This document shows, piece after piece, positions 11,160-59,039 of a DNA stretch of 64,000 bases. The position numbers and the translations under genes are program-made. The stretch is taken from the NCBI GenBank assembly GCA_029204225.1, contig CM055095.1:68222755-68286754 (forward strand), given 5' to 3'. This DNA is from Diphasiastrum complanatum (taxonomy: Eukaryota > Streptophyta > Lycopodiopsida > Lycopodiales > Lycopodiaceae). The notes under the pieces were generated by a model. That model saw only the letters and a program-made list of their open reading frames with translations. It made no database searches and was not told the origin of the DNA. Each line of letters starts with the position of its first letter. Position 1 is the first letter of the stretch.

Positions 11160-12246
11160 ATGCATCCTCCAAAGACAAAGTTGGCAAATCTATTGGCCGA
11201 CACAACATTTGCTGATCAAATAGATCGCATCTATGCTATGTTCACTGCCAGAATAGATACCCTAGCAACTCTACATGCGAATAGTAATGATTTCAGGTAT
11301 GTAAGTGAGTATATAGAAGAGAACTTAATGCCTTACTCAGTAAGAATACCTGGCTACAATATTTCTTGGATTTCGTATAGTTTGCTAACATATATATGGA
11401 AAGGAGATAGAGCTTTTGCTGTCCGACTCAACAGGTTTGTTAGCCACCTTGGGAACGAGCACTTTTTGGAGTTAACACGCGATCAACAAGTAAATTTCAA
11501 TCTCAAAAGTGCAGGAAACAAGTTCTTGTCAGGTGAAATTAGTGTGATTTTTTTGTTGAATGAATTTCCTAAAAATGTCGCTGAAGAAAAAAAGCATCCT
11601 AGCATGAACGTCAGCGAAATGGAAGAGCAAGAAGCAGAAGAGGAATTGACACCCGTGAAGGAAGCGGAGCTTGCACGACAGATGGCTTCAGTTGCATCAA
11701 CACCTACCCAACCGGAGACGTAGACGACTCCGATCACATGTTGCGAATACGTGACCTTGCCCCAATGATAATTAATGGGCAAGAGTATTTGTTTCTGCAT
11801 GACTTGCAAAGTATCCTCGACTTACGAGAGGATGAGATGTTGGCAGGATTAGTGAAATTGCAAAATGGCACCAACACCTTTGACCACTCAGTGCCAGACG
11901 ATACATTTCGACAGCTGATTGGAGATGACACAGATACTACTGAGCAAGCTCTAGCAAAATTTTTGTGTAAACTGAAGACTCTGGAGCCACCGGAGGTTGA
12001 GCATAAAAAATTTGGGAAATTACTGATTTCCACAACTGAGAGGCCATGGAATTGTGCTTGCAAAAAGTGAGAATGAGGATGAAGGATCTCAGGCAAGTTC
12101 TTTGTCAACAAATACTCTCATCCATGCTTATTCCCATTTCTGAATCTGTCCATTGTAATTATAACATTCTTATATAATGTATTGCAGTATGTGGTGGAGA
12201 TTGACAGTTTTGCAATGAGGAGCAGAAAATTTGGAGTACATCGTTT
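11160..12246 (+). pseudogene. Gene C of the H3-bearing element, copy C (unrecognised)
   Basis: Starts at ATG 11160 (MHPPKTKLANLL). The first open part runs to 11723, then a one-base shift leads into 11738-12070. The second part reads PMIINGQEYLFLHDLQSILD followed by LREDEML. It aligns with copy A gene C (LPIYYVNDDVYFTTADLCQF, then DYHKDEVL), so the genes are homologous though strongly diverged. After GSQ a GT-like donor and a TATTGCAG acceptor (12185) precede YVVEIDSFAMRSRKFGVHRF. This aligns with the copy A second exon (DALIIHDFAAKRGGCRQYAS), after which homology stops at the 3' end of the H3 gene. I know no function for the family. The middle is acidic (EEQEAEEEL). Only the 5' half of the gene is present. 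Confidence 0.6.
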
Positions 12247-13530
12247 TTAATTCCTCTCACGTCTTAGCCTTTTTGCCAACAACATGTCCTTTGGAAGTAT
12301 AGTAACTCTTTTACAATGGACAACACATAAAGATGAGTCTTCAAAAAAATTTGTGAGATACATTTCTGTCGCCTCTTGGATAGCCGATGCAGCCTCACCC
12401 GTAATTCTGAGCCCAAGGGAGAATTCGTCCATGATCTCCTTGATCGTCCGAAAAATGGAGCTCTCAATATGAGGAATTTTGTGGATTTCTGGTATTTTCG
12501 AATCTCCTTATATCAGTTCAAAATTCGGCTCTTCCTTCGGCGGCGTGGTTGCAGAGGCTGCATCCTTTTGAGGACCTTGCCTTGCCAGGGTGGTGGCAGT
12601 GTGGTTGCCCTTCTCCGTGTTGCCGGCTGGCTAGGTCCTGTCTCATCTTGCATGGGAGGGTCCTGTGGGGGTCCTGCGACACCTTTGGAGCTGGCTGATC
12701 TCGAGGCACCTAGGGAGCTTCCGGCTGCGGTTGTGCTTGAGAAATGGTCCGCGGAAGGCATCGAGGCTTTGAGCGATCTCTCTTTCGATGAACAACTTTA
12801 GATTTCGGTCATGATGTGGGTGTGACATGCTGAGAAGCCTCCCCAATGGCTTCTGCATTTGGTGTCTGGTCCGAGCTGACGAGCAAGGACATCATGGGCC
12901 CCATTACAGGCCCTTGCACATGTCCGAGTGATTGTGTTGGAGTGGAGTCCCCTGAAGCTGCTCCGACTCCTGATGAACCAACCGCAAAGCCATGAAGAGG
13001 CACCTGTTCCTAAGACCGTGATCGTCAAAGATCCCAAGGAATTCATTGGGAATCGGCCCGAAAGCAGCTACCTTACTGTCCAAAAAAGCCTGAGTGGTGT
13101 CACGCTGGCTCTGTGTTGGAGAGGGGCTTCCCAGCACTCACCTCACACCAAAATCATGCAGCAGGACATCGTCCATTGCTCTGGCTATATGCTGCTCATC
13201 CATAGGTGTTTGTTGCTACCCCTGCTCCTACCCCTGCTCATCCATTGTTGCTTGCTATTGCCCAAGCTCCTCCATTGCCACATGCTGCTACCCCTGCTCC
13301 TGCCCTTGCACCTGCTCACAATCCATGGGAACTTGCCCAAGATCATCCATTGCTGCCTGCTCATCCTGAGTTCTGTCCATTTCCTCCGCCACAGGTTCAA
13401 TGCTACTACTTTTGCTCCTACTCCTACTCCTCGAGCGCCTTTCCTGTGATTCTATTGCTTCTAAAGCGGCTTGGTGCAATAATGATGTTTCCCTTGGATT
13501 CTGCCTTGTTGTTTGTTTCGTACATGCCAT
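12247..13530 (-). pseudogene. Divergent histone H3-like gene, copy C (long N-tail)
   Basis: Start ATG at 13530. The N-terminus MACTKQTTRQNP imitates the H3 tail (ARTKQTARKS): T3, K4, Q5, T6 and R8 are kept, R2 is Cys and K9 is Gln. The C-terminal core reads KEIRKYQKSTKFLILRAPF (alpha-N). After a single-base shift in a T-run near 12455 it continues through RTIKEIMDEFSLGLRI (alpha-1/loop 1), ASAIQEATEMYL and FFEDSSLCVVHCKRVTILPK (alpha-2/loop 2), and DMLLAKRLRRERN with stop at 12247, the canonical H3 end. Between tail and core lie about 1 kb of Arg/Ser-, Gln/Gly- and Pro-rich sequence with tandem repeats and frame breaks, so it holds introns or is decayed. Loop 1 appears of ordinary H3 length, but the long tail is CENH3-like. 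It is tail-to-tail with gene C. Confidence 0.8.
13190..13330 (-). repeat. Coding-type tandem repeat in the H3 N-tail
   Basis: Degenerate repeats of GGGGTAGGAGCAGGGGTAGCA alternating with CAATGGATGAGCA-type units (plus strand CCCCTGCTCCTACCCCTGCT). Read on the minus strand one frame gives Gln/Gly- and Met-Asp-Glu-Gln-type repeats with stops. They sit in the long tail of the H3-like gene and probably expanded there. Confidence 0.6.
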
Positions 13531-13544
13531 AAACTAGGTTGCCA

Positions 13545-17149: not shown

Positions 17150-17465
17150 GATTTTCTTTATTGATGCTCTTCAGATTATGATTTAAATGCTTCAACATTG
17201 TTATTTTCTTTCAGATTTATATCCATCATGCATAAGTGAATGGGAGCTAGCACAATAACTTGCAAGAAAACAAGCTGACTAGGATTATTTCTAGTTATGT
17301 GGTGGACGACACGGTAGAATGGAGCTCTAGGAATCAGCAGAGCGATTGATCTTTGATACTTACGAATATCGAGAGCCACCTGCTACAAATGTGCCTTCTA
17401 GATCTAACTGGAGGAGTAATGGCAACCGCAAGGGCTGAGGATGAGCTAGCAGAAAAGAAATTCCT
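17150..17465 (-). pseudogene. Histone H3-like fragment, copy D
   Basis: On the minus strand a segment reads AVAITPPVRSRR, then VALDIRKYQRSIALLIPRAP and FYRVVHHITRNNPSQLVF. This is the end of the tail, alpha-N and alpha-1 of an H3 fold (compare the H3 words VALREIRKYQ and LLIRKLPFQRLVREI). It is clearly the same lineage as copy A (37140-37412): the plus-strand words TTATTTCTAGTTATGTGGTG and TACTTACGAATATC are shared. The initiator region of copy A has been lost (HRER where copy A has DRRK). The rest of the element is absent, so this is an isolated relic beside a copia LTR. Confidence 0.75.
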
Positions 17466-17469
17466 CTTC

Positions 17470-18098
17470 GTTCTCTATGACAAGAGCACAATGGCATACA
17501 TCAGATGAAAAAATCTAATCCTCACTATGAGAAATGAATGTCATAAATAATTCTAAGTGTTTAGTATGGAAATAAGAGGCTGCTCTCAAGTAGAGAGAGA
17601 AAATCAATCATGAAAAACTTGAGTAGAGAGAGAATGAGTCCAAAACACCAAAATCTCAATATTCATAATATGGCAAAACATGCCAAGCTTACCCTACACA
17701 AGAGAGACTCGAATTCCTACATTGGAGTTGCATGGAAAGTCCACTTAACTGAACTAATTCACCTACCATAGTTCCGCATGTGTAACTGCATGCATGTATG
17801 TTGCATGTACTACATGTCAACTCATAAAACTGCCTAGACATGTGTAGATCACAGAAACCACTTTGCATGTTGCATGCACTGATTGCATGTGGCTTGCATG
17901 CATATAGTATGACATTGCATGCTATCTAAACTTCTGCATGTCATCAAAATTGAATCTATCTAACTCAAATCCGAGCTATACTAGAAGGTTATGTGGTCAA
18001 TTCACATACCTTTTATGCACAACATGAAATCTAGTGGAATCACCATGGACATGGCCCCAAACTCGAGATAAGAAGATAATATTTTAATAATCTTCACA
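17470..18098 (-). mobile_element. Copia 3' LTR region (left edge uncertain)
   Basis: The right edge is set by the minus-strand start TGTGAAGATTATT directly after a purine tract. The block includes many TGCATG words between 17770 and 17945 (GCATGCATGTATGTTGCATG and similar), echoing the 16229-16625 array. No matching 5' LTR is recognisable right of 22060, so the left boundary is a guess. Confidence 0.5.
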
Positions 18099-28714: not shown

Positions 28715-28717
<3 letters not shown>

Positions 28718-31513: not shown

Positions 31514-33307
31514 TTAACAGCTCCAAAATGACGCAGACACTAAAGGTTTGCACTTCCATTTCAACAGCAGTTTATTCTCATCTTGATCCAATCCATACTC
31601 ATTTGTAAACATCCCCAGAAGAAGCTTTGCTTGTCTACGATTGTAACCGCTTACCGCAGCTTTCCTGAATGTCCCTGCGAGTATAAGTTTACGCCAAGTA
31701 GTTCCAGTGAAGTCTCTGTTTTGAACAAGTTGGCCTTGTTGTCGGTAAGATGAATTGGTTAGAGCACTGTATATTCTATGAGCAAGATATCTACCCTCCG
31801 CAAGAAATTGGGTTGATTTGCAAGAGAATATGGCGTCCAGTGAATCGAAGATGGTATAGTAGTGCTCCAGCGTTTCGACGAAGTACCCCACAAACGTATG
31901 TGGTATGGACGTCGTCAGCTCTTCCTCCACTAAGGCAATCAATTTCGGAGAAAGCTTCTGCATGGCATTGAAAAAGGAGGAGACTGAAGCTGATGAGATG
32001 GGGGAGGCGTGCAAGAGATGGAGCATGCAATTCACCACCAGAGGCTCCCTATCTACCACGTTCAACCCCACCACGAGAAACTCGTCATCCTCCTGCTGGA
32101 TTATCGCCTGCTGGAATGAGAAGGGCAGATTGAGAGCAGCTGCACAGCGCGAGAGATTTTCTCCAGCTTCATCAACGCTGACAAGACCTCGTGGGAATTT
32201 ACAAGGGCGAGTCAAAGCTGTGATGCGTAAGTATGGAGGGCCCTCAGGCCGTGCTGCGAGATCTTGCATCAGCGATGGCCACTGCAATCCTTCCATTACG
32301 TCATAGTCAATAATGTGGAGTCTTCTTTCTCCCTTTGCAACCTCTAGGATAGCTTGATTTGCAGAAAAATAGCCGAATTTGGCGTAGGGAAAAAGATTCT
32401 GGAGCGCTTCGAAGGCGCAGAGAGATCCACCACTGCTGGGGAGGTCAGGAGCTGCTGGACTTATCCCATCAACGAGGAACTGCATGGCGTCGCAGAAGTA
32501 AGCCGCCACACGTTGGATGGTGTTGCCGGATAGGGACACCATCTCTCTGAGCCGTTCCAATATCACCGCAGTGACATCACTACGTGAAGAGGAGGAGAAG
32601 GACACTGCACTTGCGAGGAGTAGATGGATGAGCCTGAGCTCGGTGAGGTCCTCCTGGGGAAACAAACCCGCCACAGCTTGGAAGGGAAATTGAGGTAGAA
32701 GCTCAGTTTCTGCCAGCACCTCAGTGTTCACTTGTGTTGCCGTTGGCTGCAGCATAACGTCATCGATGTCAATTGGGTTTGGAGCAGAGATGTCTCTATC
32801 CATGCTATCTTGCATTTGTACAGACATAGCCTCCTGAACGCGGGATGGATCGTCTGAGGAGGTGATGCATTCCCCAGAAGAGATGGAGACACAACGTGGC
32901 GATGGAATTGGTGAACTCTGCAATCTCCCATAGTGCATCTCCAGGAGAATACTCTCCATCAAATCTGAGTTCTCTTCTGCCCGGAGTGCCTGATCCGAGT
33001 AACCAAATGTGTCGTAGGTCGAATTGGAGGCGTCACTACCATCAAATTCGCCAAAACAATCCATCCAATCATGTCCTTGCCAAAGCTGCATGGATGAGCT
33101 GCTCTTGAGCGAAGACCCGCAGCTCAAGCTAGGCAAAGAAGGCAGAGACGACTCCGTTATGGGGAAAGACTTGTTAGTGCTGCCGTTGATAGAATAACAC
33201 ATGGCTGGGCTATCTGAAAGATGGATCGCCATGATTGAACTGCTAGTACCACTGAGAGCTCTAGCTTCTTTCTGCCACACTTTACTGCCCATCTCTACAG
33301 ATTCCAA
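31514..33307 (-). CDS. GRAS-family transcription factor, NSP2-like
   Basis: Intact 597-codon, intronless frame, the usual size and structure for a GRAS gene. The N-terminal 200 residues are variable and Ser-rich. The GRAS domain follows: leucine heptad I (LIHLLLASAVSF, about residue 228), a VHIID-type motif LHIIDYDVMEGLQWPSLMQD (about residue 330), heptad II, a PFYRE-type region around FVGYFVETLEHYYTIFDSLD (about 475), and the SAW end with NRRQAKLLLGMF, LLLKWKCKPLVSASFW (last 60 residues). The wording DYDxMEGxQWPSLM and KLLLGMF is typical of the NSP2 (Nodulation Signaling Pathway 2) subfamily, which with NSP1 regulates strigolactone biosynthesis and symbiosis genes in the nucleus. The subfamily call is from motif wording only. 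It is the one gene here with no defect. Confidence 0.92.
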   Translation of the reverse strand: MESVEMGSKVWQKEARALSGTSSSIMAIHLSDSPAMCYSINGSTNKSFPITESSLPSLPSLSCGSSLKSSSSMQLWQGHDWMDCFGEFDGSDASNSTYDTFGYSDQALRAEENSDLMESILLEMHYGRLQSSPIPSPRCVSISSGECITSSDDPSRVQEAMSVQMQDSMDRDISAPNPIDIDDVMLQPTATQVNTEVLAETELLPQFPFQAVAGLFPQEDLTELRLIHLLLASAVSFSSSSRSDVTAVILERLREMVSLSGNTIQRVAAYFCDAMQFLVDGISPAAPDLPSSGGSLCAFEALQNLFPYAKFGYFSANQAILEVAKGERRLHIIDYDVMEGLQWPSLMQDLAARPEGPPYLRITALTRPCKFPRGLVSVDEAGENLSRCAAALNLPFSFQQAIIQQEDDEFLVVGLNVVDREPLVVNCMLHLLHASPISSASVSSFFNAMQKLSPKLIALVEEELTTSIPHTFVGYFVETLEHYYTIFDSLDAIFSCKSTQFLAEGRYLAHRIYSALTNSSYRQQGQLVQNRDFTGTTWRKLILAGTFRKAAVSGYNRRQAKLLLGMFTNEYGLDQDENKLLLKWKCKPLVSASFWSC

Positions 33308-34372
33308 GCTTCAGGGCCGGCAATCATCACGTGGAGGAAATTGTTCCAAACAAGCTCATTACCTCCCTTAAACTCAACGCATGCATCTGCAACCTTCACA
33401 TTGCACAAGGTTATAAGGTGCTCCAATCACAAAAGACATTATCACTCAGAAAAGACACGCACAGAGACACAGATGCGACACAGATGCAGCAGTAGTAGCT
33501 GGCACGTTGATGCTGCATGCCCGAGAATTTCAAGCCATATTTTGTCTCAAACTAGCGGCCATTCTTGAAACTTAAGCCCAGGAAAGACATCACGCAAAAT
33601 GGGCAGTTGATCCACTATATATTATCAAACCTCTTGCTACAACCAAGCTACATCATCCAATTTCTATCATCCACTTTTATACAACTCCACCAGAATATCT
33701 CCGAGTGTGAGGTAAGGGCCATTCGCGTGGCTCTCCGCGCCTCTTTGGCATCGGTCCCATGCCCTCGAGAAATCTCATGCGTCGCATCTTGCAATCGCCA
33801 GTGCGGAGTAGACAAAAGAACAGCTGAAAAGAAATGCAGGCGGCTATTGTGCCACCCGCCGATCTTGGACCGCGTCCCTCGCTCTCCTCTCACTCATAGG
33901 AACGATCATCCATCCATCCATCTACCGTCTTCCCTCCCCCCAATCCCTACTTTTCAAGGTTTGGCAGTTTCAAGATTATTTAGGGTTCAGCTAAATGTGT
34001 GCACATCTCTAATTAGCAAACCTCAAACTCAATCTTTGAGCCAGCTTGAGCTCGTAACACTAACACACCTATTACAGGAGTTTCGAGCACCAAAAAGGCC
34101 TTTTGTTAAGATGTTGTTTTTGACTTTTTAACTATTCGACGTACACTTGGCCCAATTATATATTTACACCTGTGAAAGACCGTAACGTTGTTTGCCGATC
34201 GAATTTTTCTTGAAACTTTTCGATCATATTTTTATACAATTCAAAACTCCTGCCGGGCATGGTCTTGACTTGTGATTGGACCGTAATCACTGCCCGTGAG
34301 TTTCCTGAGTGTTCGGGACCTAACACTTGTGGTTAAAGTAAGTCTATTTTGATCTAACTGTAGTTAGAGTAT
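33308..34372 (-). promoter_or_regulatory. GRAS gene upstream region
   Basis: About 1 kb separates the GRAS start codon from copy A of the H3-bearing element. A TATATATT-like word on the plus strand (33618-33627) is the nearest TATA-like candidate for the minus-strand gene, about 310 bp before the start codon. The longer plus-strand frame through 33565-34131 has no known motif and looks like chance. No promoter motif can be assigned firmly. Confidence 0.35.
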
Positions 34373-34483
34373 ATGATTTATGAAAGACCGCTAGCATTTA
34401 TTACAAATTTGGTTTTTTATTTTCATACTGATTCATCTACTTTTAGTTTCAAACTCTATTGTTCATCTTCTTTTAACTTTGCA

Positions 34484-35630
34484 ATGGCTTCCGGAAGCCG
34501 TAGACCACGAAGCAATATTGTCTCAGTTTCTGTTTGTAATGAAAAAGACTCTGATGGCTCTTGGATACCATGTATCTATAAAAAATTTCATGGTAAATTA
34601 AAAAGAGAATAAAAAATGGATTATAGGAGCTTTTGGAAAGGTAGAATTTTGAGTGGAAGGCGTAGGTTCAAAATGACAGACTCAAATGCAATTGTAAGTT
34701 TGGGAGAATTTTTTGCTTTGAGCTTTTCATCAATCATTTAGACGTGTATCTGAGTATTTAAATGATATAGAGTTTTATGGGTTTGTGCAGATTTGTACAT
34801 CAGGCATAATCGAATGGCAACCTATACAATCCCTTGTAAACATCATGGACGTTATTCATTCTGATAATGGTCTTCTACAATACAAGAACCACTCCACGAG
34901 GTCACTTTTGGATTCTTGTATTTTCTTCTATGATTCATCTTACACACCATCCAGTTTAGGTGGAAGATTAGAGACGATATCATTACCCTCTTTCTCAAGC
35001 GAAGAATAGATTCCTCTGGATTCCACCATAGCAGAGAGCTTTCGATCAAAGTTTTTTATGGACATTCAAAACTGTATGAAATGTAGCACAGGTTCAAAAA
35101 ACAATACATTGCACTGGTTTCTGCCTTTTGCGATGTTTGTAGATTTTTTTATTGTGTGTAATATTCGTAGAACAGCGACAATGTTTATTTGTAGTGATTT
35201 AACAGACGATATGTTATCAAGCCTCCTTGATGATCAATGGGATAAAAAGAGTAATGACAATATCGAGTGCATAGTTAATAAATCGTCAATGAAATTTAGA
35301 TATCTTATAGAAAAACAAATGCTTTCTTTAACATTTTATAATAGAAGATGGTCCAAAGTTGGCAACGAATGGAAAGCATTGGATCAGGATTTTACAGTGA
35401 ATCATCAAGATCAAATAGAAATCCAAGTGAAGCAAAATAATTCTACTATTACAACAATTGAGGTGGAGGAATATTGGACACTCGATCACATTCGATCAAA
35501 GCCTACCTTGCTGCAATATGAAATTCCTGAAAACTTATTTTATTTAGACTTATTTGAATGTTTTCGGTATTGCAAGATTGCATTTAAAATAATCTCAATG
35601 CTGATAATGTTTAACAAGTTTGTTTGATGT
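34484..35630 (+). pseudogene. Gene A of the H3-bearing element, copy A (unrecognised)
   Basis: Probable start at ATG 34484 (MASGSRRPRSNIVSVSVC). An in-frame stop at 34610 follows. An acceptor TTTGTGCAG (34789) leads to CTSGIIEWQPIQSLVNIMDV, and 35058-35627 gives 189 open residues including CSTGSKNNTLHWFLPFAMFV, then DFFIVCNIRRTATMFIC and IEVEEYWTLDHIRSKPTLLQ. Copy B (58238-59002, minus) has the same gene: CKDLSHEIL and VEVEEHWKLDFIRIELMLLQ align. I recognise no known domain; there is no transmembrane or nuclease motif. Shared presence in both copies with partly conserved sequence says it was a real element gene. Confidence 0.6.
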
Positions 35631-35639
35631 ACAGGTAAG

Positions 35640-35855
35640 ACCCAGACAAGAAAATCGCATACAGTGCAAGGATTTAAATAGAAGCGTCAAAAATTGTCGA
35701 AACTGCATAAACATTGGGATGGTAGACATGCAACAACAATGTACAATACTGTTAGGATCTAGTGCAGTATGCAGATCACATAATCAATCACCGTAGACAC
35801 TCTTCAGAAGCTCTCAAAGATGGCATAGCAAAAGCTTTAGATTACAAAGAAACAC
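35640..35855. other. Diverged gap between genes A and B, copy A
   Basis: Not alignable by eye to the corresponding part of copy B. The last exon of gene B, present in copy B (57776-57913), is replaced here just after its acceptor (TTGCAGTTTA on the minus strand, near 35866). Confidence 0.5.
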
Positions 35856-37412
35856 TGTTAAACTGCAAGATAGAACATTCATGTATTAGTAATGGCTAAA
35901 AACATCAACAAAATAGAAAACTAATCATGATTCCAAAAATAAGAATAAACAAAATTAATTACCTTAGAAATATCAACATCTTCCTGAAGGTTGAACCACT
36001 CAAAAAATAACTTTGCATTATATAATGTGTACCACCCATAACTGAATGAATCCTTTTGCTGGGGTGACTGCAAAAAAATTCAGCACACAAGAAATCAATT
36101 ATGAAATAGAATGAATTAGAATGAAACAAATACATTAGAATACTGATGTCAAAATGTTGTTAAGAAAGACATAATTTACCTCCAAACTAATGATCTGCCA
36201 GTCCACTGAACGGGGAACATCTGTTGGAATATATTTACTTAAACATGGCAAGTATATATCTACATCCTTATGCATATTGCTAGCCGAGTTCATCTTGAAA
36301 CAAAAACCTTTAGCAATATTATCTGCAGATCTTTTAATAGAGATCAGGTTTAAACTCCAGTGGTCACTGCAAAATAAGATAGAAATTTCATTAGCTGCAA
36401 TTCTAAGAACTTTTTTCATTTATAATGCCAATGATAAAGCATTTAACATGTACTTGGTATGATAAGGCACGACCAGGTATTTTGTTGCTGGTGTGAGTCC
36501 ACTAGTCAGACATTATGACAATGTGTCGTTATTCTCCTTGAAAGGCCTGAAGCAAAAAGTTACTGAGCACCAGCAATTCATTGGATGAATCTCTTGCAAT
36601 GTCATATTGCAAGAGTGTAATCCCAGACTCTATCACAGGATCACTAATAGAAGCCCGTCTATTTTTAAGATCCAAACAATCGATAACTCTATAATTTGTA
36701 CTAAAGTCAATTTCCTCTATTCTGAAACAAAATGGAGTACCAATTCTATCTACAGCATCGGCTATGTCCTTCTGAAATTTTAGATAATCATCGGAATCTA
36801 TATGTGTATAAAGATTTGAAGGAGCAAGAGGAGGTGGATGAGTAATATCTACAAGAATTACAGGAGTATCCAAAATCGATGTAGCTATATTTACAACCTT
36901 ATCTAGGGCAACATTATCTACATTTGCATCCGGGTTAGGCTTGGCAGAGTCGGTGGTATCTACCCTCCTTACTTTTGGGGCTCTCTTGGGGGTTGTCTAC
37001 TTCCTAGGACGCTTGGTAGGAAGATCAATCCTATCTAGAGGAACAGGTTTGGGAGCAGCAGGCTGAGATATGTGTAAATTGCAAAATCTCTCCCTCATTC
37101 TCATCAGTAACTGAAGGTCCTTAGGCATAATGGTGACTCTCTTAGAATGAATAGCAAGCAAAAATGGATCTTTAAAAGAATTATGAATCTAACAAGCTGG
37201 CCGAGATCATTTCTAGTTATGTGGCAGATGGCACGATAGAATGGAACTTTGGGAATTAACAAAGTGGTTGATCTCTGATACTTACGAATATCAGAGAGGC
37301 ATCTGCTGCTGTTGCGTCTTCTAGATCTAACCGGAGGTGTAATGGCAACCGCAGGAGCTGAGGATGAGCCAGCAAAGAAGAAATCTCTCCTTGTCTGCTT
37401 TCTCCTATCCAT
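35856..37412 (-). pseudogene. Gene B, copy A: histone H3-like fold joined to Ulp1-like protease
   Basis: Start ATG at 37412. Tail MDRRKQTRRDFFFAG, then SSAPAVAITPPVRSRRR, alpha-N DIRKYQRSTTLLIPKVPF, alpha-1 YRAICHITRNDLGQL. About 20 residues of alpha-2 are missing, and after a frame change DPFLLAIHSKRVTIMPKDLQ and LLMRMRERF complete the H3 core (37175-37085). A basic linker has a TAG at 36998-37000. Then comes a conserved segment (VILVDITHPPPLAP onward, 36873-36529), and after introns the C48 core: SDHWSLNLISIKR with the His, then SVDWQIISLEV, and QQKDSFSYGWYTLYNAK. The oxyanion Gln is present, but the nucleophile Cys is Tyr (36038-36040). The usual Asp position reads MNSA, so Asn. H3 packages DNA; Ulp1-type proteases remove SUMO. 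Frameshifts make this copy dead. Confidence 0.8.
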
Positions 37413-38208
37413 GGAAGTATACTCGGGGATATCGCACTTGTTCGTGACGATGAGGATAAGAAGGGGAAGAATATGAAGCGTTCATAGAGGAGCGATATGT
37501 ACGGTATATAGAAGAGAGGCAAGTCCAATATGAGGAGACACGCAGGTAGAAATATCGGACCTGTGCACATGGAATGCAGTAAGCAGAATATCGATTACGA
37601 AGGGGGCGCACAAGTGCGATATGCAAAGCGAAAAAAAAAGTGAAAAAAATTCATCGGAGTTTGTGATTTTATATCACGGTTCGCACGTGCGAAAGAACGT
37701 CATGTCACACGTGCGAGTTGTCTAGTCATCAACACGTGACAACAAGTCAGCGAATGATCATTTGACACATGTCAGATTGTCATTTCACATGTGTGGGATT
37801 GTACGACCAAATGCGAGAGCGACACGTGTTGTCCATCCGACTAATGAACACGAGGCATGTGTCCTTGTGTCATTTCACACGTGTCCAGGTGTCACCTCAC
37901 ACGTGCTAGTGCATGCAGACCAATAAAAAATGAACACATGTCTGTTGACCGTTGACCATGCGTGTGAAAATTCAGTATAAAAGGCACGAAACCAGATTAA
38001 TTTTTTACTTTTTTCTTTCTCAAAATTCACATCATATCGCTCTTGTGTGCGCGCTTTGTTGTCCATTTTATTCATCAATCCTACTTGCGCACAAGTGCGA
38101 TATTCAGTTGCTACCTGCTATACATATCCCTCTTGTGCGCGATCTTTACAGTTAGTTTTATTTCATTTTGTCTCCCTCGTGCACAGGTGCGATCTCTGTC
38201 GTAGTGCC
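37413..38208. promoter_or_regulatory. Divergent promoter between genes B and C, copy A, dense in palindromes
   Basis: Between 37680 and 37975 there are about ten CACGTG, ACATGT or CACGTGT words (GCACGTGC, TCACACGTGCGAG, CAACACGTGAC, GACACGTGTTG, CACACGTGTCC and others), which are G-box/E-box cores. A second family, AATATCGCACTTGTGCGC and its reverse complement, occurs near 37430, 37555, 37605-37622, 38040, 38085-38105, 38130 and 38180, on both flanks. TATAAAAGG at about 37975-37983 could serve gene C. The same two families occur in copy B at 56240-56650. Confidence 0.7.
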
Positions 38209-39777
38209 ATGGCCTCTTCCTCAAGATCCACACGAGATTCGGGCCTAAGTTTAATTTTTATGGAATTTGAGATTATTGAATATCTAGACTACTTCCATAG
38301 TCTATTCAGGCCATATTTACATGTTTTTAAGATTGCACAACCAAATGTTGACGTATTTTATGAACATTATGTTAGATTCTATACTCAGTAAGCTTGTTAT
38401 CTTCATAGATTCACTCTCGTACATGCATTATACTGATCTTGTTCATTTCTTCCCAGCTTTCAAACATAGACTAGATAGAATGTTCACCAAATTGTTTGAT
38501 CTTTTTAAAAGCAGTTCAATGTGTCCTTCTTGCAACAAGAAATGTCAATTGGTTGAATACCAGAGTGGTTTTGGACTTTTCATGTTAGTTCAGATCCTGG
38601 ATGATGAGGAAGTTTCTGTTGCTGACCCTCCTATTGCATCATCCTCTATTCAGTCAGCTATTAAGGATATTAGTCACTTCCTAATCGACACCCATGATAA
38701 GGATAGTGACTTTATTGATGTAAATACTGATGTGCTTCGGGATTCTTTTATTGGCCAAAATACATTTGCTGATGAATTGATCCCTATAGAGGAGTCAAAA
38801 TGTCTTTTCAATTTGCCAATATATTATGTAAATGATGATGTATATTTTACTACAGCTGATTTATGTCAATTTTTTGACTATCATAAAGATGAAGTTCTAC
38901 GTTTATTATCCGGCACAATTTCTGAATTCTTCGACTTTGTAGATTTTGAAACAGATGACCTTGTTGTTGGAATTGATTATGATGATGAGGAGGGACTTAT
39001 GACTGGTGAAGAGTGATTGACTAAGACTTTATCAAATATTGCGGAGGATGGACGAGACAGACCATCCAATGAAAAAATTAATGGACGAGACAGACCATCC
39101 GATGAAGAATTCATGACATTTCAATCCCAGATGGGCTTCCCTCATCTATCATTAATGCATTTTACAGATGATTCCACTTCAGTAGGTGGTCATTATATTG
39201 GTCATCCTGATCTGGTTGCTGCTGATGATGAAGAATGTGTAAGTGTTTAAACTTCCTTGCATTAGAATGTTCTTAACTACTGAATGTATTTTTTCTAATA
39301 TATTTCTTATTGCAGGATGCTCTCATAATTCATGACTTTGCTGCGAAACGAGGTGGTTGCAGACAATATGCATCCTCGTTCCAGAGAGATAGTGGACTTG
39401 GCCACTGTCTTAGGCATTTCTTGAAGAATGAGATCTATATTGCTCATTCGAAACTGAGCATAGTTGGGGAGAGTCTGATAATGGTAGTTAAAGCTTTATC
39501 ATTTTATCTAGGAGGACATAAATTTGTTAAGAAAAATAAGATCATTTTCGTCAAAAGATCTTATGTTTTGAACATTCTAGGTTTTACTGATGGGAATGTT
39601 CCTTTAAGGAGCTCTCATTATTCATTGTACTCTACTTATATTGAACTTAGTAGAAATAAGAATAATGCACATCTATTAGATGCATACTCTAGAAGAAAAT
39701 TTTTTCATGACAATACTACCATAGAATCTATCACACAAGCTGATGATGAATGGTGGACACTTTGTATTTTGTTATAA
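38209..39777 (+). pseudogene. Gene C of the H3-bearing element, copy A (unrecognised)
   Basis: ATG 38209 (MASSSRSTRDSGLS). The first frame (LDYFHSLFRPYLHVFKIAQP, then NVDVFYEHYVRF) breaks near 38385 relative to copy B and continues at 38400 with MHYTDLVHFFPAFKHRLDRM. A CPSCNKKCQL zinc-ribbon-like CxxCxxxC follows, then an acidic middle and LPIYYVNDDVYFTTADLCQF. A TGA at 39014 replaces a sense codon present in copy B. After it, GRDRPSNEKIN is tandemly duplicated. Exon 1 ends about 39235 (GAATGTGTAAGT), and exon 2 starts after TTATTGCAG (39315): DALIIHDFAAKRGGCRQYAS to WWTLCILL. I recognise no known domain; the family is also seen in copies B and C. A role in DNA binding is possible but unsupported. 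Confidence 0.65.
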
Positions 39778-39849
39778 TACAATTGATACATTTACATTGA
39801 GTATTTCTCCTCTCTCTTGTTCCATGAATTTGCATGCAATTCTGAACAT

Positions 39850-42580
39850 GTCACACTTTTACATTGAGTATTTCTCCTCTCTTGTTCAATGAATTTGCAA
39901 GCAATTCTGAACATGTCATAATTTGATGACAATGATGATTGAATGTCTTTGTTATCTTCTGTATGTCAAATCTGAACTCTACGGTAGAACCACTGAAACA
40001 ATTGACAAATGTAGTTTCGTTTTTCATTGGTTCCTCCATGTTGTGTATTTCGATGAAATGCTGCTCGTGCTTGCCCATGCGACTTCTCCATCCCTTGTGA
40101 TGACCATACACTCAACCTTCCATATGTGTTTGCAAAAAATGTTGTATGATCTCTTAGTATGTGCTGCATATGTCAAAACCATAATGTTAGTCTATGTTTG
40201 AATCTAAATATGTATGGAAAATTGAAAGCATCTTGAAGAATTTATACTAACCATGTAATGAGTGATGTAATCTTCTCCCCATGCTTTTGATACTGCATTA
40301 ACAAACTCGACACAAGTCCTTTGTACAACTTTCTTATCAATATCAAAGTATTTATCTTTTTTTAAAATAGCAATCATACTATCAAGCTTCTTCCATACAT
40401 CAACTTTTAGTACTCTGGTTTTGCCGTCTTTCTCAAAGTCCTGAGTGGCACCAATAATATTTGTCCAGACTGAGTGTTGAATATTAGAAGCCTTACCAGT
40501 ATGATTTGATAGAAAATGACGTGCTTTGGCTCCTCTTGTGCTTGGCTTAGTTGGCATGTTCCCATTCTTTCCTGAAAGCTTTTCATCTTTTTGAATTTTG
40601 ACATGTCCCTTATGAAGTATTGCTTTTGATAAAACATCTTCTAATCGAGAGATAGCTTCCTTTGCTAATGATGTTGGCTTTGTATTCCAAGCAAAAACAA
40701 TATGAAGATAAATGATCTTTTCTATTCATCTAACTTCTGCATGAAGAGTACAAACATGCACATTTTTCAAGGGGATAGGCAGCACAGGCTTCCAGTTTGG
40801 ATCTGCATATTCTCTAGTAATTCCTGTACTCCTAGTAACATCTTTTGCCATTTTCATGCAGTACAAACAAGGGTGTTTTGATGTAGCACCGTGAGAGACA
40901 TTATACATACATTTCAATGCTTTCAAATCACCTGCTAAGTGTCATTCAACATTGAAGTCTCCAACTCCTGGAACATTGAGAAGTTCTCCATCCATATGGT
41001 CCTTGATGATCCTAGGATAAGATGTCCTTTAGAATATCCATGATAATATATCATGATCCTCCTTCAGCACCTGTCCAAAGAATTAATCAGACTTAGTTAT
41101 CAAAGAATTAATATTATTCAATGAATGTAATGTAATAATGAGGCTAGTTACCTGAAACGCTGCCAACCACCATATATCATTTTCTGACTGGACACTGAAT
41201 CTAAAATTTTCTTGGTCCTTTGTTTGTGATAGTGCACCATTCGTGAGAGTTATACTAACCTTCTCCATCTTTTGCCCTTTCACAATTTCTGACTATAATT
41301 ATTTTGTCATTCACCTTTTCAAAGGTTATATTATAGAATGTGACGATGTATCTCAGCAAGTAATTTAGATCAACAAATAAGTTGTTTGATGAATTATAGA
41401 ATATTGATCTTCCATCAGTTTCATACACCACCTCAATATGAAATGGAGTTCCAGTGATCTTATGCATACCTATGTTTAATGTATCCATCTCTTTCTTCAA
41501 GTGATATGTCCTAGGGATTGGGACTTTTCTAATTTGAACTTGCTTAAAAGCTTCTCTAATGAGTTTAAATATTGTTGCATATGCTTCCTTGCTAATACCT
41601 GCAAAATCACAAGCACCTTGAACTATAGTCTTATCTAAAAGAATTTGAATGTCCACCATCAAAGACTCTGTTATTTTACACTTTACATTTGAACTCCTAT
41701 TGTTCATCATGATACGCTCAGTGGATTTGCCTGTCAATATTGTGCCCAATGACATTTCTAGTGAAGCATTGTCTTTAATATTCTGAGGAGCTACTAATGC
41801 AGATAGTTAACAGAATATCACCATAGCTGAAATTAAATCCAAATGTCATTGAAAAACCTACAAAAATCAGAATATGCTTACTTGAATACACGGTTCCTTC
41901 TATTTCAATAACCTCCTTTTGAAAGCATTTGAATATCCTTGCAACTTTGTCGCTTTCACTTCTTACTTTCAGCTTTTTTATTTGCCAATTCCACATCCTT
42001 CAATAATTGTAAGTTTTCAATACGAATAGATTGTAAGATTGATTGCATTTGCTCTAGTTCTGATTTGATATTGATTGTTATCTTCTGTAATGATTCATTA
42101 TTTTTTTTAAGTTGTTCATTTTTTTCTAACGTCTTTTGGAGATGACAATCTCTCTTCTGACAATAAGAGGATATCCGAATCAACTCACCTTCTAAAAAAT
42201 GAACTTTATTCATATAAAGTTGTTTTCCGTGGTTCTACAATCTTTCACAATATCCTAGTAATTCACTATGTCCATTGCATATCCATGTAACTAAATGAAT
42301 TATTGAGGAGAATGTGGGATGTGTCAAAGTGCTTGGATCTTGTGGATATAATGTTCCATCTATCCACAAATCCAAGTTTTTCTTTCCTTCTTCTTTGTAA
42401 CGAGAATGATCCTCAACAAATATTTGAATTCTTTTGCCTCCTCTTCTCTGCAAAGGTGCCAAATCAATAGAGAAACCAAATGTAGATCATACAATGTCAT
42501 CATCAGGAAAAACAATAGAGTAATCAGTTGTGTCAAAGTACTATGACCAAATTCTATGTAACAAAACAAAATACTCATCT
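39850..42580 (-). pseudogene. Gene D, copy A: candidate transposase (unassigned family)
   Basis: Start about 42578 (MSILFCYIEFGHS), followed by a globular N-part (GKKNLDLWIDGTLYPQDPST, HLVTWICNGHSELLGYCERL). A coiled coil (QKTLEKNEQLKKNNESLQKI) ends in a basic tail. An exon with FKLIREAFKQVQIRKVPIPR follows, then a core: FNVE-HLAGDLK, KCMYNVSHGATSKHPCLYCM (a CxxC knuckle), TLHAEVR, and a distal exon GRLSVWSSQGMEKSHGQARA with FHRNTQHGG. The GDLK Asp, the CxxC insert and the late M-E-K-S-H Glu/His are arranged like RNase H-fold transposases, but I cannot place it in a named superfamily. Introns have good AG/GT sites. Several stops and frameshifts are present. It is convergent with gene C. Confidence 0.6.
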
Positions 42581-42589
42581 TTGATTATA

Positions 42590-43084
42590 TTATATACGCT
42601 ATACGATCAATCCAATCTCCATGCTTGTATGCTTGATTCAAATTTGGAAATGCCGCTCATTTTTTCATTCCAATAGGTAGTTGGCGCTCATATTTCCATT
42701 CCAATGTAAAGATGACATTCATAATTGGAGATGGCACCCATATTTTCATTCTCGTGGAAGGAATGCATATGTAAACATTTTGCTATTTTTTCTGATTCGG
42801 ATTTGGGGATGGTGATCATATTCTAGATCTAGTGAAAATATTGCCCTTTTCGTAACCAATGGAGGGACTATTTTTGAATTTAGTCAAGTTATACTGCGAA
42901 CTGTTTATAGTTCTTAACAGTGACTATAGACACTGTGGTTAGATCATTGGGAGTTGGGGAGGCCTCGGGAGTGGTGGGGGCAAGCAAATAAACAATATTG
43001 TTTTTTTTATTTTGATATTTTTCTATATCTTACATGGCATTCCTTAAAGGGTCTTTTTGATATTGAGAACTCCTCTAATGTCCA
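42590..43084. mobile_element. Terminal noncoding segment of the H3-bearing element, copy A
   Basis: It mirrors 52831-53280 in inverted orientation, including AACAATATTGTTTTTTTTATT, GGCATTCCTTAAAGGGTCTT, and the last shared word GAGAACTCYTCTAATG. Beyond 43084 the two copies diverge abruptly into different gypsy fragments, so 43084 is a candidate element end. Imperfect repeats of GGCGCTCATATTTCCATTCC-like words occur at 42650-42760. Confidence 0.65.
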
Positions 43085-52722: not shown

Positions 52723-52830
52723 CTATTCAAAAGTAATGTTCGGACGAAGAGAACCAATATCAATCATGATGTCATAGTCTTTCGTCTTCGATTTCGAGAT
52801 TGGCTTATCAATAACAACACTAGACAATCA

Positions 52831-53279
52831 TTAGAAGAGTTCTCAATATCAAAAGACCCTTTAAGGAATGCCATGTAGGATATACAAAAATATCAGAATA
52901 AAAAAAACAATATTGTTTATTTGCTTGCCCACACCACTGCCAAGGCCTCTCCAACTCCCAATGATCTAACCATAGTGTCTATAGTCACAGTTAAGAACTG
53001 TTAACAGTTTGCAGTATAACTTGACTAAATTCAAAAATATTCCCTCCATTGGTAACGAAAGGGACAATATTTTCACTGGATCTAGAATATGACCGCCATC
53101 CCCAAATTCGAATTAGAAAAAATTGCAAAATGTTTACATATACATTCCTTTCACAAGAATGGAAATATGAGCGCCAACTACCTATTGGAATGAAAAAATG
53201 AGCGGCATTTCCAAATTTGAGTCAAGCATACAAGCATGGAGATTGGATTGATCGTACATAGTATATAATATAATCAAAG
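52831..53279. mobile_element. Terminal noncoding segment of the H3-bearing element, copy B
   Basis: Starts CATTAGAAGAGTTCTCAATA and is the inverted counterpart of 42590-43084. Left of 52831 is gypsy protease/gag sequence unrelated to the flank of copy A. No matching inverted terminus was found at the other end of either copy by eye. Confidence 0.65.
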
Positions 53280-54965
53280 ATGAGTATTTTGTTTTGCTTC
53301 ATAGAATCTGGTCATAGTACTTTGATGCAACTGATTACTCTATTATTTTTTTGATAATGACATTATATCATCTACATGTGGATATCCTTATTGATTTGGC
53401 ACCTTTGCACAGAAGAGGAGGCAAAGGAGTTCAAATTTCTACTGAAGATCGTTCTCGTTACAGGGCAGAAGGAAAGAAAAACTTGGATTTGTGGACAGAT
53501 GCAACATTATATCTACAAGATCCAAGCACTTTGACACATCTAACATTCTCTTCAATAACTCATTTAGTTACATGGATATGCAATGGGCATAGTGGATTAC
53601 TAGGATATTGTGAAAGATTGCAAAACCATGGAAAACAATTTTATATGAATAAAGTTTACTTTTTAGAAGGTGAGTTAATTTGGATATCCTCTTACTGTCA
53701 GAATAGAGATTGTCATATCCAAAAGACGTTAGAAGAAAATGAACAACTTAAAAATAATAATGAATCTTTACAGAAGATAACAATCAATATCAAATCAGAA
53801 CTAAAGCAAATGCAATCAGTCTTACAGTTTATTCGTATTGAAAACTTACAATTACTGAAGGATGTGGATTTGGCAAAGAAGAAGACTGAAAGTAAGAAGC
53901 GAAAGCGACAAAGTTGCAAGAATATTTAAACGCTTTCAAAAGGAGGTTATCGAAATAGGATCCGAGCATTCAAGTAAGCATATTTTGAATTTTGTAAGTT
54001 TTTCAATGACACTTGGATTTAATTTCAGCTATGGTGATATTCTGTTAACTATCTGTTTTTTTTGCAGATCTGCATTAGTAGCTCTTCGGAATATTAAAGA
54101 CAATGCTTCACTAGGAATGTCATTGGGCACAATATTGACTTGCAAATCCACAGAGCGTATCATGATGAACAATAGGATTTAAAATGTAAAGTGTAAAATA
54201 GCAGAGTCTTTGATGGTGGACATTCAAAAAAATTTAGATAAGACTATAGTTCAAGTGGGTGCTTGTGATTTTGCGAGTAATAGCAGGGAAGCATATGCAA
54301 CAATATTTAAACTAATTAGAGAAGCTTTTAAGCAAGTTCAAATTAGAAAAGTCCCAATCCCTAGGACATATCACTTGAAAAAAAAGAGGGATACATTAAA
54401 CATAGGTATGCATAAGATCACTAGAACTCCATTTCATATTGAGGAGGTATATGAAACTGATGGAAGATCGATATTCTATAGTTCATCAAACAATTTATTT
54501 GTTGATCTAAATTACTTGCTGAGATACATCGTCACATTCTATGATATAACCTATGAAAAGGTGAATGGCAAAATAATCATAGTATTTAAGTTAGATGAGT
54601 CAGAAATTGTGAAAGGGTAGAAGATGAAAAGGGTTAGTATAACTCTCATGAATGCTGCTCTATCACAAACAGAGAACCAAGAAGATTTCAAATTCAGTGT
54701 CCAGTCAGAAAATGATATATGGTGGTTGGCAGCGTTTTAGGTAACTAGCCTCATTATCACATTACATTCATTGAATAGTATTAATACATTGTAAACTAAG
54801 TCTGATTAATTCTTTGGACAGGTGCTGAAAGAGGATCATGATATATTATCATGGATATTCTCAAGGAAATCTTATCCTAGGATCATCAAGGACCATATAG
54901 ATGGAGGACTTCTCAATGTTCCAGGAGTTGGAGACTTCAATGTTGAATAGCACTTAGCAGGTGAT
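53280..54965 (+). pseudogene. Gene D, copy B: candidate transposase, 3' truncated
   Basis: Starts near ATG 53280. The 53351-53929 frame is open for 192 residues: DLAPLHRRGGKGVQI, LDLWTDATLYLQDPSTLTHL, HLVTWICNGHSGLLGYCERL, coiled coil, and the basic end KKTESKKRKRQS. After an intron ending TTTTTGCAG (54067) come exons with FKLIREAFKQVQIRKVPIPR, NNLFVDLNYLLRYIVTFYDI, FKLDESEIVKG and QSENDIWWLAAF. After another intron, VLKEDHDILSWIFSRKSYPR runs to VPGVGDFNVE and HLAGDLK. It ends at 54965, where a deletion joins it to the 3'-truncated gene C of the same copy. The second-Asp motif is present; the CxxC and Glu/His exons seen in copy A are lost. Confidence 0.6.
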
Positions 54966-56258
54966 TTGAAAAAATTTATGTCCTCCTAGATAAAATGATA
55001 AAGCTTTAACTGCCATTATAAGACTCTCCTCGACTGGGCTCAGCTTGGAATGAGCAATACAGATCTCATTCTTCAGAAAATGCCTAAGATAGTGGCCCAG
55101 TCCACTGTCCCTATGGAACGAGGATGCATATTGTCTGAAACACCTCGTCTCACAACAAAATCATCTATTATGAGAGCATCCTACAATAGGAAATATGTTA
55201 GCAAAAACACACTCAGTGATTGAAAACATTCAAATGCAAGGAATATTAAACACTTACACATTCTTCATCATTAGCAGCAACCAGATCAAGATGATCAATA
55301 TAATGACCACGTATTGAAGTGGAATCATTAGTGAAGTGCATTAATGATGGATGAGGGAAGCCCATCTAGGATTGAAATGTCGTGAATTCTTCATCGGATG
55401 GTCTGCCTCGCCCATCCTCAGCTATATTTGATAAAGTCTTATTCAGGCATTCTTCACCAGTCATAAGACCCTCCTCATCATCAAAATCAATACCAGCAAC
55501 AAGGTCATCTGTCTCAAAATCTACAAAGTTGGAGAATTCGAAAATTGTGCCGGATAATAAACATAGAACCTCGTCCTCACGATAGTTAAAAAATTTACAT
55601 AAATCAGCAGTAGTAAAATATACATCGTCATTAACATAATATATAGGCAAATTGAAAAGACATTTCGAATTTCCCATAGATTTGGATTCATAATCAGATG
55701 TATTTTGGCCAATGAAAGAATCCCGGAGATCATCAGTATTTACATCAATGAAGTCACTTTCTTTATCAGGAGTGTCGATAAGAAAGTAACTGATATCCTT
55801 AATGGCTGACTGAACAGAGGTGAAAAAAGAGGGTCAGCAACAGGAACTTCATCATCATCTGGGATCTAAACTAACAGAAAAAGTACAAAACCACTCTGAT
55901 ATTCAACCAATCGACATTTCTTGTTGCAATACGGACACATTGAACTACTTTTGAAAAGATCAAACAATCTGGTGAACATTCTATCCAGTCTATGTCTAAA
56001 AGCTGGGAAGAAATGAACAAGATCAGTATAATGCATGTACTAGAGTGGACCTATGGAGAAAACCGGCTTGCTAAGCATATCTTTGAATCTGACATACTGT
56101 TCATAAAATACGTCAGAATTTGGTTGTGCAGTCCTGAAAACATGTAGATATGGCCTAAATAGATTGTGAAAGTAGTCTAGGTTTTCTAATAATTCCACAT
56201 TCACTCACAAATGAGCTCAAGCCTGATTCTCACGAGGATGATAAGGAAGAGGCCATGG
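54966..56258 (-). pseudogene. Gene C, copy B, 3' truncated
   Basis: The minus strand starts at ATG 56258 (MASSLSSS, early stop), with an open 55677-55366 part: NVFSICLYIMLMTMYILLLL in one frame and CLFNLPIYYVNDDVYFTTAD, then LCKFFNYREDEVLCLLSG, in the gene C frame. ECLNKTLSN reads through the place where copy A has TGA. The CPYCNKKCRL counterpart of the zinc-ribbon-like motif lies at about 55910-55940. Exon 2 begins near 55245 and breaks off at about 54970 against gene D. Confidence 0.6.
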
Positions 56259-56689
56259 CAGTAACGTGAATATCGCACTTGTGCACGCGGGAGAATTGAA
56301 CCAAAACTAATTATCAAAATGGCGTAGAAGATGGATATGTATGGCAGACAGATACAGAATATCGCACTTGTGCGCGAGTCGGTATAGTTGCAAGCAAACG
56401 GACAGCAATGAGCACGCACAAAAGCGATATGTCGCGAATTTCGAGAACTGAAAAGGTAAAAAATTAATCAGTTTTCGTGCCATTTATACTAAGCTTTTGC
56501 ACGTGTGGTCACGAGACTTAGGACACGTGTCTACTTTCAATTGGACAACAGACACATGCACGTGTGAGATGACACCTTCACACGTGTGAAATGGCACCTG
56601 GACACATGTCACGTGTTCATTCGATTGCTCAAAAACACGTGTCGCTCTCACATTCGATCGTACAAATTTCACTGTGACGCCTATCCCAT
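56259..56689. promoter_or_regulatory. Divergent promoter, copy B, with CACGTG and TCGCACTTGTGCGC motifs
   Basis: GTGAATATCGCACTTGTGCA at 56267 and CAGAATATCGCACTTGTGCG at 56355, then GCACGTGTGGTC, GACACGTGTCTAC, CACGTGTGAGATG, CACACGTGTGAAATG, CATGTCACGTGTTC and AACACGTGTCGC between 56495 and 56650. The layout matches copy A, but the H3-encoding exon that should follow is missing. Confidence 0.7.
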
Positions 56690-57913
56690 AATCCATTGTA
56701 GATAACGCTGCTGTTGATAATGTTGTAAAGATAGCTACCTCTATTTTGGATACTCCTATAATTGTTGTAGATACTACACATCCACCTCCTCCTCCTCGTC
56801 CCAATTTTTATACATATATAGATTCGAATGATTATCTTAAATTTGAGAAAGACATATCGGATGCTATAGATACAATTGGTACTCCTTTTTGTTTTAGACT
56901 AGATGAACTTGATTTTAGTATAAATTTTAGAGTTCTAGATTGCCTGGATCTCAAAGACAGACGGGCTTCTATCAGTGATCCTGTGATAGAGTCCAGGCTT
57001 ACACTCTTGCAATATGACATTGCAAGAGATTCATCAAATGAGTTGCTGGTGCAGAGTAACTTCCTACTTCAGGCCTTCAAGGAGAACAATGACACATTGT
57101 CACAGTGTTTGACAAGTGGATTTACACCAGCAACAAAGTATCTGCTCATACCTTATCATACAAAGTAAGTTATATTAAATGCTTCTTGTTGTTTTATGCA
57201 TTAACATTGGCATTGTCAATGAAAATAATACTCAGAATTGCAACTAAAGAAATTTCAATCTTATTTTGCAGTGACCACTGGAGTTTAAACCTGATCTCTA
57301 TTAAGAGATCTGTAAATAATATTATTAAATATTTTTGTGTGAAGATGAATTCAGCGAGAAATACGCATAAGGATGTAGATATATACATTCCATATCTAGG
57401 TAAATATATTCCTACAGACGTTCCCCATTCCGTGGACTGGCAGATCGTCAGCTTGGAGGTAAACTTTGTCTTTCTTAATGGCATTTTGAAATCAGTATTC
57501 TAATGAAATATTTTTAATCTATCTCATTCTGTTTCATAATTGATTTCTTGTGTGCTGAATTATTTTGCAGTCACCCCAGCAAAATGATTCATTCAGCTGT
57601 GGGTGGTACACATTGTACAATGCCCAAGTTGTTTTTTGAGTTGTTCAACCTTCAACAAGATGTTAATATTTCTAAGGTAATAAATTCTGTTTATTCTTAT
57701 TTTGGAATCATGATTAGTTTTCTATTCTGGTGATGTTATTGGCCATTACTAATATATGAATGTTCTATTTTGCAGTTTACACTTCCTGAGTACACATCAA
57801 ACCAGGTGTACAGATTTAGACAAGAAATTATCCTGAGTATACTGGCTAGGGCAAGGCTTCAGCCTCCCGTTATTGATGATGGTGCAAAGGATGATGTAGT
57901 TGTACTAAATTAA
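56690..57913 (+). pseudogene. Gene B, copy B: Ulp1-like protease without the H3 part
   Basis: The first exon (about 56690-57164) contains DTPIIVVDTTHPPPPPRPNF, GTPFCFRLDELDFSINFRVL and DIARDSSNELLVQSNFLLQA. Intron GTAAGT. Exon 57272-57458: DHWSLNLISIKR (catalytic His), KMNSARNTHKDVDIYIPYLG, SVDWQIVSLEV. Exon 57571-57676: QQNDSFSCGWYTLYN with the Gln and the Cys (57598-57600), then a 1-bp insertion shifts the frame at NAQVVF. Last exon 57776-57913: TLPEYTSNQVYRFRQEIILS to VVLN. Three GT-AG introns align with those of copy A. The family is C48 (Ulp1/SENP-like), though the Asp position reads Asn. Everything encoding H3 is deleted upstream. Confidence 0.75.
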
Positions 57914-58237
57914 GATCAGAAAAAATATAGATAGCATAGAACAAAAATACATGTATAGACTTCATAGAAAAATATACATTGATATATGAAATGGTGCTCC
58001 AGTTTATGAATTTGGAAGCACAAAATACATTTATAGATGCCCAACTTGGGCTTTCATTTATTGAATGCAAGAGTGTATACACAGACTTTTACTAAAGTTT
58101 ATTTGGAACTATTGTTCTCCCACAATGGTGATTGTTGTAGGTAGATCTTTGCAGCACATTATCAACTCCTGTCTTTTTCGCATCTGTGACATGGCAAATA
58201 TTAGTGAATGTGCAATTGTAAATGATGATATTTTCTA
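57914..58237. other. No supported gene
   Basis: Intergenic between genes B and A of copy B, where the two converge. Confidence 0.45.
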
Positions 58238-59002
58238 TTATTTTGTTCTATTTTGAAATGGCAATAAACATAAAGTACTTACAAGTCTTCCGTTGATGAT
58301 AAATCTGAAATATGTTGGTAGATTGGTTTGTAATAGCATGAGCTCTATTCTGATAAAATCAAGCTTCCAGTGCTCTTCCACCTCAACCATAGTCAAATAT
58401 TCCTCATTGTAGATAATGCTTATCTCCATTCGGTTTGTGTGACCATTTAGTTCAAAGTCTTGATCCAGTGGTAGCCATGTACCTTCAATTTTCTTGTATC
58501 TCTGGTAGCTAAATGTGAGACTGAGCATTTGCTTTTCGATATGATAATGAAAGATCATTGAAGACTTTTTAATCCTGCATTCTATGTCATTATTTGTTTA
58601 ATTATTCCAGTCTTGATCCATGAGATTTGACAAAATCTCATGTGATAAATCCTTGCAAACAAATAAAGTTGGTGTCCTACGAACACTAGCACTCGAGAAA
58701 AAATCAACAAATGTATGCAATGAGATAAACCAACTTAGGTGAACAATCTTCGAGCCTGTGCTTATCTTCATAGCAAATTTAATATCAATGAGTAGCTTGC
58801 ATCTCAAGGATTCAAAAACAATGCTGTCAGGAGTAGGCCACTCATCAGTTTGAAAACTAGGCAATGGAATTGCTTTGAGCTTGCCAAAACCTCCATCTAT
58901 TTGTGGCGTATATAAAGATTCATAAAAATAGAAACCACAATCTGCAAGTTCCTTTGGACTTTGTGATTGATTGTGATACTGTTCTGTTTGCATCACACAC
59001 AT
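58238..59002 (-). pseudogene. Gene A, copy B (unrecognised)
   Basis: 59002-58598: KELADCGFYFYESLYTPQID, IPLPSFQTDEWPTPDSIVFE, KISTGSKIVHLSWFISLHTF, then VDFFSSASVRRTPTLFVCKD. After a stop near 58600 it continues 58558-58238: YHIEKQMLSLTFSYQRY, EISIIYNEEYLTMVEVEEHW, KLDFIRIELMLLQTNLPTYF. It aligns with copy A 34785-35627. No known domain is seen. The 5' exon (MASGSRRPRS in copy A) was not found; the sequence beyond 59010 belongs to another element. Confidence 0.6.
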
Positions 59003-59039
59003 TTCTTACGTTATACTGAATTTCAATTACTCTAACATG

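Follow-up and report, generated by a model that had tools for sequence, protein, structure and literature searches.

Transposons carry proteins that counter silencing and, in plants and fungi, also pick up pieces of genes. CACTA elements have CACTA ends and a 3-bp target-site duplication, and Transib-type elements have CAC-type ends and a 5-bp duplication. VANC proteins, some of which contain a Ulp1 domain, have an anti-silencing role and set a precedent for element-coded anti-silencing (accessible parts of PMC13317346, PMC5735166 and PMC10398659). A precedent for histone capture is a fungal hAT element that multiplied a captured housekeeping H3 gene, inactivated by repeat-induced point mutation in Pseudocercospora fijiensis (accessible part of PMC6710886). 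We found no transposon with a conserved histone of its own in the open-licence papers searched, the fungal hAT element with its copied H3 being the nearest case. Here we describe a four-gene element (genes A to D) that includes a histone H3-like gene, found in a 64,000-nucleotide stretch of the lycopod Diphasiastrum complanatum (contig CM055095.1, positions 68,222,755 to 68,286,754), hereafter the window. Its copies are probably decayed terminal inverted repeat (TIR) DNA transposons with their own transposase, gene D, and an H3 variant as a standing gene that works for the element.

Copy A is a decayed TIR DNA element, and its four genes stand in alternating orientation, A (+), B (-), C (+) and D (-), as the earlier note had described. 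That note placed the left boundary at 34300; it is corrected to 34070 by left-end loci, of which three out of six reach this base and three diverge within the element. Terminal repeats, which the note had proposed looking for, are present, inverted, at 34070 and 43080, and recur genome-wide. Element ends begin CATTAG, and the TIR of copy A starts CATTAGAGGAGTTCTC; the two repeats are imperfect in copy A and almost perfect in a 9.09-kb copy on another chromosome (c2). The right end is common to copy A and nine retrieved loci, at the exact base or at most one base off. Flanks are unrelated, as had been claimed, in eight of these nine, which differ from copy A outside the shared terminus. The ninth, at 68.4 Mb on C4, belongs to a duplicate of window 28001-44945 lying ~140 kb away (C4:68.39-68.41 Mb, 96-97% identity), so this copy is not an independent insertion. 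The same terminus, within one base, across loci with unlike flanks rules out a chance coincidence of ends. Allowing up to two mismatches, the TIR word has 872 + 908 = 1780 matches in the 1.745-Gb genome (control 0), and a 56-base right-end word has 169 + 174 = 343 exact copies (control 0). TIR words facing outwards ~3.7 kb apart occur twice on C1 (C1:49901522-49905285 and C1:50386274-50390036), perhaps as two adjacent elements in a duplicated segment.

The window contains a second copy, copy B, in the opposite orientation. Blocks A35859-36940, A37799-39528 and A40921-43080 are common to both at 82-89% DNA identity by window self-comparison, so the repeated four-gene unit is real, and the two copies do end at one terminal sequence, A 43080 corresponding to B 52829. 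Copy B lacks A36941-37798, with all H3 exons, and A39529-40920. The earlier note had also lettered copies C and D; the repeated unit stands, but its letters B to D cannot be matched one to one, as the note gave no coordinates for them. First-look genome searches gave 937 candidates for a gene A piece, 1272 for the H3 part of gene B and 2173 for a 552-base piece of gene D, with the best 40 of each scored; those of gene D were 92-100% identical, and ten places were retrieved. These genes are therefore multi-copy. Gene C, with which alone no genome-wide search was made, recurs in the retrieved copies. Of three copies on other chromosomes, c2 has all four genes, arranged and oriented as in copy A, c16a has genes A, B and partial gene D at the DNA level and no gene C match, and c6 has genes B, C and D and no gene A match. 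The remaining retrieved copies have C and/or D pieces only. Linkage of gene D to H3 also recurs beyond the window locus, in retrieved copies of the window's family (family 1) and in loci of a second family described below. The feature is larger than first described; the observation is confirmed and the element interpretation supported, neither of the outcomes that the earlier note named as refuting it having been seen. At C18 ~0.89 Mb (L013/L014), a more divergent second match to gene D (57% amino acid identity) lies beside a copy of the window's family and is oriented the opposite way.

Table 1. Element-related features of the window (aa, amino acid).
Feature	Position	Strand	Basis
Copy A, whole element, decayed, ~9.0 kb	34070..43080		left end, 3 left-end loci; right end, 10 loci including copy A
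Left TIR, imperfect	34070..34101	+	alignment with right end
Gene A remains; start codon placed by eye	34484..35627	+	frames; relatives in c16a and c2
Gene B, Ulp1 (C48) part; Tyr at the catalytic Cys place	35958..36528	-	Peptidase_C48 6.5e-5, frames
Gene B, linker domain	36529..36996	-	frames, retrieved copies
Gene B, H3-like part; helix 2 carries a deletion	37000..37412	-	Pfam, frames, genome-copy alignment
Gene C remains	38209..39777	+	frames, retrieved copies
Gene D remains, predicted RAG1/Transib-fold transposase	39969..42540	-	frames, relatives, predicted fold of a relative
Right TIR	43049..43080	-	right-end alignments; 56-base word counts
Copy B, reversed; without H3 exons; Ulp1 Cys kept	52829..59005 (59005 approximate)		self-comparison, frames
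Piece of the family-1 H3-like gene (N-terminal half)	17203..17480 (about)	-	82% DNA identity to A37191-37384, 194 bases; frames
Second-family H3-like gene, long N-terminal tail, decayed	12244..13533	-	67 residues 72% identical (aa) to a family-2 H3; matching tail as far as 13128, frames as far as 13533

Joined gene B of copy A matches Pfam Histone at 5e-13 and Peptidase_C48 at 6.5e-5, above cut-off, and its single frames match solved H3 structures. The H3 words picked out in the earlier note are thus a true H3 domain, and the H3/Ulp1 composition it proposed is borne out. Copy A carries a broken H3: ~48 nt present in most scored genome copies are missing, the histone fold is incomplete and stops interrupt gene B. 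At the Ulp1 cysteine place, copies A and c2 have Tyr, and copies c6 and B have Cys. Copy c16a has one stop in the H3 fold, after which a single frame of 253 aa crosses the linker in the direction of the Ulp1 part. The open-frame test took in 26 gene B loci, 17 of which were testable by an exact start word; among the 20 retrieved gene B loci, L054, L053, L042, L044, L045, L049 and L055 are without it. One testable locus, L052, stays open from the start word for ~327 codons, as far as the piece extends, and has a complete H3 histone fold. The other 16 are not open, indicating that family 1 is largely defunct. A unit of several genes that include a histone and a C48-type protease could also be read as a decayed integrated DNA virus, but no viral core gene lies above Pfam cut-offs in the scanned frames, and size, TIRs and transposase account for the unit, leaving a viral origin extremely improbable. 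As for the flanking genes, gene A has relatives in c16a and c2 at ~47% amino acid identity and no Pfam match in 35010-35627, and two frames of gene C gave nothing above the Pfam cut-off.

Gene D is probably the element's transposase: a DDE enzyme with a predicted RNase H fold, structurally of the RAG1/Transib class, whose relatives show the fold and the acidic and zinc pattern. The predicted model of one relative, P0015, contains an RNase H-fold core of RAG1 type; both fold results obtained are VIA re-rankings of Foldseek's top 1000. The family has two Asp and a Glu together with a CxxC and HxxxxH zinc pattern. In relative P0002, D411 is invariant and D508 nearly invariant across ten relatives; the HxxxxH motif with Glu is found in copy A and in the three of 68 proteins that match P0002, most of the 68 being fragments, and hhalign aligned this Glu with RAG1 E962 (E 0.09). 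Gene D relatives also occur in the fern Adiantum. When the PDB was searched by hmmsearch with 23 gene D relatives, the 13 matches had a best E of 0.24 and included neither RAG1 nor Transib. We rejected gene D as a Transib enzyme on the grounds of no significant sequence similarity in the PDB, as a CACTA enzyme on the grounds of no Transposase_21 Pfam match up to E 1 and an hhalign E of 0.28 against the genome's own CACTA enzymes, and as a Mutator enzyme because the scanned frames had no Mutator-type Pfam match. The enzyme would cut the element at its CATTAGAGGAG ends.

Judged by sequence, there are two H3-bearing families, with H3 fused to Ulp1 in family 1 and encoded alone, bearing a long basic tail, in family 2. 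Four family-2 loci (L069-L072), chosen for long frames or linkage, have a complete H3 fold ending a long frame with the stop directly after it, and hence no Ulp1 fusion. Family 2 is tied to the element by proximity to gene D, which adjoins two of these four loci. A scan with a CENH3-core query, in which the best 150 of 5753 candidates were scored, gave 13 near-canonical (69-70%) and 137 non-canonical (47-57%) H3 loci, and 112 of the latter have no stop within the match. Gene D loci were scanned with P0015, the best 51 of 19996 candidates being scored. A scored non-canonical H3 locus lies within 8 kb of 14 of these 51, with 0.06 expected, and none of the 13 near-canonical loci adjoins one. Twelve of the 14 linked pairs are convergent, with a gap of 2.3-3.1 kb in eleven and 0.6 kb in one, and the other two differ in strand; the pairs may include mutual duplicates, such as those on C20 and C21 with an identical gap. 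Unlike convergent family 2, family 1 has H3 and gene D in the same direction. We considered that the H3-like loci might be a host gene family beside some of which transposons inserted, as 123 of the 137 non-canonical loci have none of the 51 scored gene D loci within 8 kb. This is very unlikely given the recurrent convergent layout and spacing, some pairs perhaps being mutual duplicates, and given that the family-1 H3 sits inside TIR-bounded copies. In the window, two overlapping open frames at 11103-12067 (+) are convergent with the decayed family-2 H3 and may belong to another gene of the second element family. By eye this open reading frame seemed akin to gene C, but comparison gave no significant support.

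Between L052 and the four family-2 sequences, the proportions of synonymous (pS) and nonsynonymous (pN) differences were 0.85-0.87 and 0.35-0.36 over 83 codons; L052 was picked because it is open and the other four for long frames or linkage, a choice that favours constraint somewhat. Within family 2, synonymous (dS) and nonsynonymous (dN) divergence was 0.07-0.13 and 0.02-0.04. Over all pairs, the ratio of third-position to first- plus second-position changes was 1.54 in the tail, 1.38 in the H3 fold and 0.97 in the linker, in a gappy alignment. In 69 fold pairs more than 12% apart, codon positions 1, 2 and 3 differed at 0.134, 0.095 and 0.248. As synonymous sites are saturated between the families and pN is only ~0.36, selection appears to have kept the H3 fold, and its retention in both families suggests that the histone works for the element. 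Alternatively, a host H3 may have been captured once and spread with the transposon as a passenger of no use. Such capture has the fungal hAT element as a parallel, and 16 of the 17 tested family-1 copies are broken. A passenger is nevertheless unlikely to have kept a complete fold in two families of different H3 architecture, with pS ~0.86 against pN ~0.36 and most non-canonical loci free of stops in the match.

The element H3 could instead be of centromere type, so that the element settles in centromeres or drives with them. Its alignment shows LLIP..PF and a longer loop 1, which we take to be traits of plant CENH3. Identity alone does not decide a CENH3 origin: the family-1 H3 is equally near H3.1 (47/85), rice CENH3 (48/87) and Arabidopsis CENH3 (45/85), and the window's family-2 copy is nearer H3.1. 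On C1, the TIR matches among the first 100 places listed are scattered between 1.9 and 99.2 Mb, and we regard a centromeric role as quite unlikely.

Several points weigh against a transposon with a working histone. The fold match comes from a predicted model of relative P0015, not the window protein, after re-ranking of the Foldseek hits, and sequence comparison gave no significant match between gene D and RAG1. Target-site evidence amounts to a single 3-bp match in six end pairs, the pairing of ends being uncertain in decayed copies: L061/62 is flanked by TCA on both sides, L057/58, L059/60, c2 and L073/74 show no duplication, copy A has ACC and TCC as flanks, and a 5-bp duplication was seen in none of the six. 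The single open gene B and the few changes within family 2, 4-7 of each kind per pair, count on the same side. So does the failure to find an H3-Ulp1 protein outside this genome within reach of one search, which yielded three H3 proteins, all lacking a Ulp1 domain.

Under the favoured reading of a TIR transposon with its own H3, the histone would most likely be built into nucleosomes on element DNA or lie at their borders, with the fused Ulp1 domain of family 1 removing SUMO from silencing factors at the same sites; the outcome would be continued expression of the element's genes and continued access to its ends. We offer this combination of nucleosomal H3 and desumoylation tentatively; in a variant, the H3 would steer integration to chosen chromatin. 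It is similarly conceivable that the element represents a plant superfamily whose transposase has a RAG1 fold and whose H3 variant was already on board before the families split, one branch having it fused to a protease of SUMO type, and that it sets its own chromatin state to escape silencing or direct integration. Should the histone be in use, the element would be writing chromatin itself, and a parasite's escape from heterochromatin could be put to the test through a single protein. Finding a RAG1-like fold in plant transposases, with related proteins in Adiantum, would also be informative on how RAG-type enzymes spread.

Outside the element, a long open frame just left of copy A (31517-33310, -) looks by eye like an intact GRAS-type transcription factor, and frames at 18558-21865 and 62031-63030 resemble, by eye, Copia-type retroelement proteins.

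The mobile element itself falls within the established class of TIR DNA transposons; within the literature searched, the new aspect is the H3 as a conserved element gene, which we did not find described. Gene D resembles RAG1, RAG-like and Transib enzymes in predicted fold, in the placing of two Asp and a Glu and in its CxxC and HxxxxH zinc pattern, but has no significant PDB sequence match, and the element differs in its CATTAG ends and in the extra genes A-C with H3. The accessible part of PMC9435367 reports 39 Transib-like proteins in plants, and that of PMC8355894 contained nothing on plants. The CATTA ends are reminiscent of CACTA (EnSpm) elements, the D-then-CxxC spacing is similar by eye and one of six end pairs has a 3-bp match, whereas gene D has no Transposase_21 match (E up to 1) and an hhalign E of 0.28. 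Kaonashi/VANDAL elements are likewise multi-gene plant DNA elements with a Ulp1 domain, but here there is no Mutator transposase match and Ulp1 is fused to H3; the word "histone" is absent from the accessible text of the Kaonashi/VANDAL review (PMC13317346). The fungal hAT element shares with ours the multiplication of an H3 gene by a DNA transposon, but the H3 described here is diverged, occurs in two element families and accompanies a transposase of another fold.
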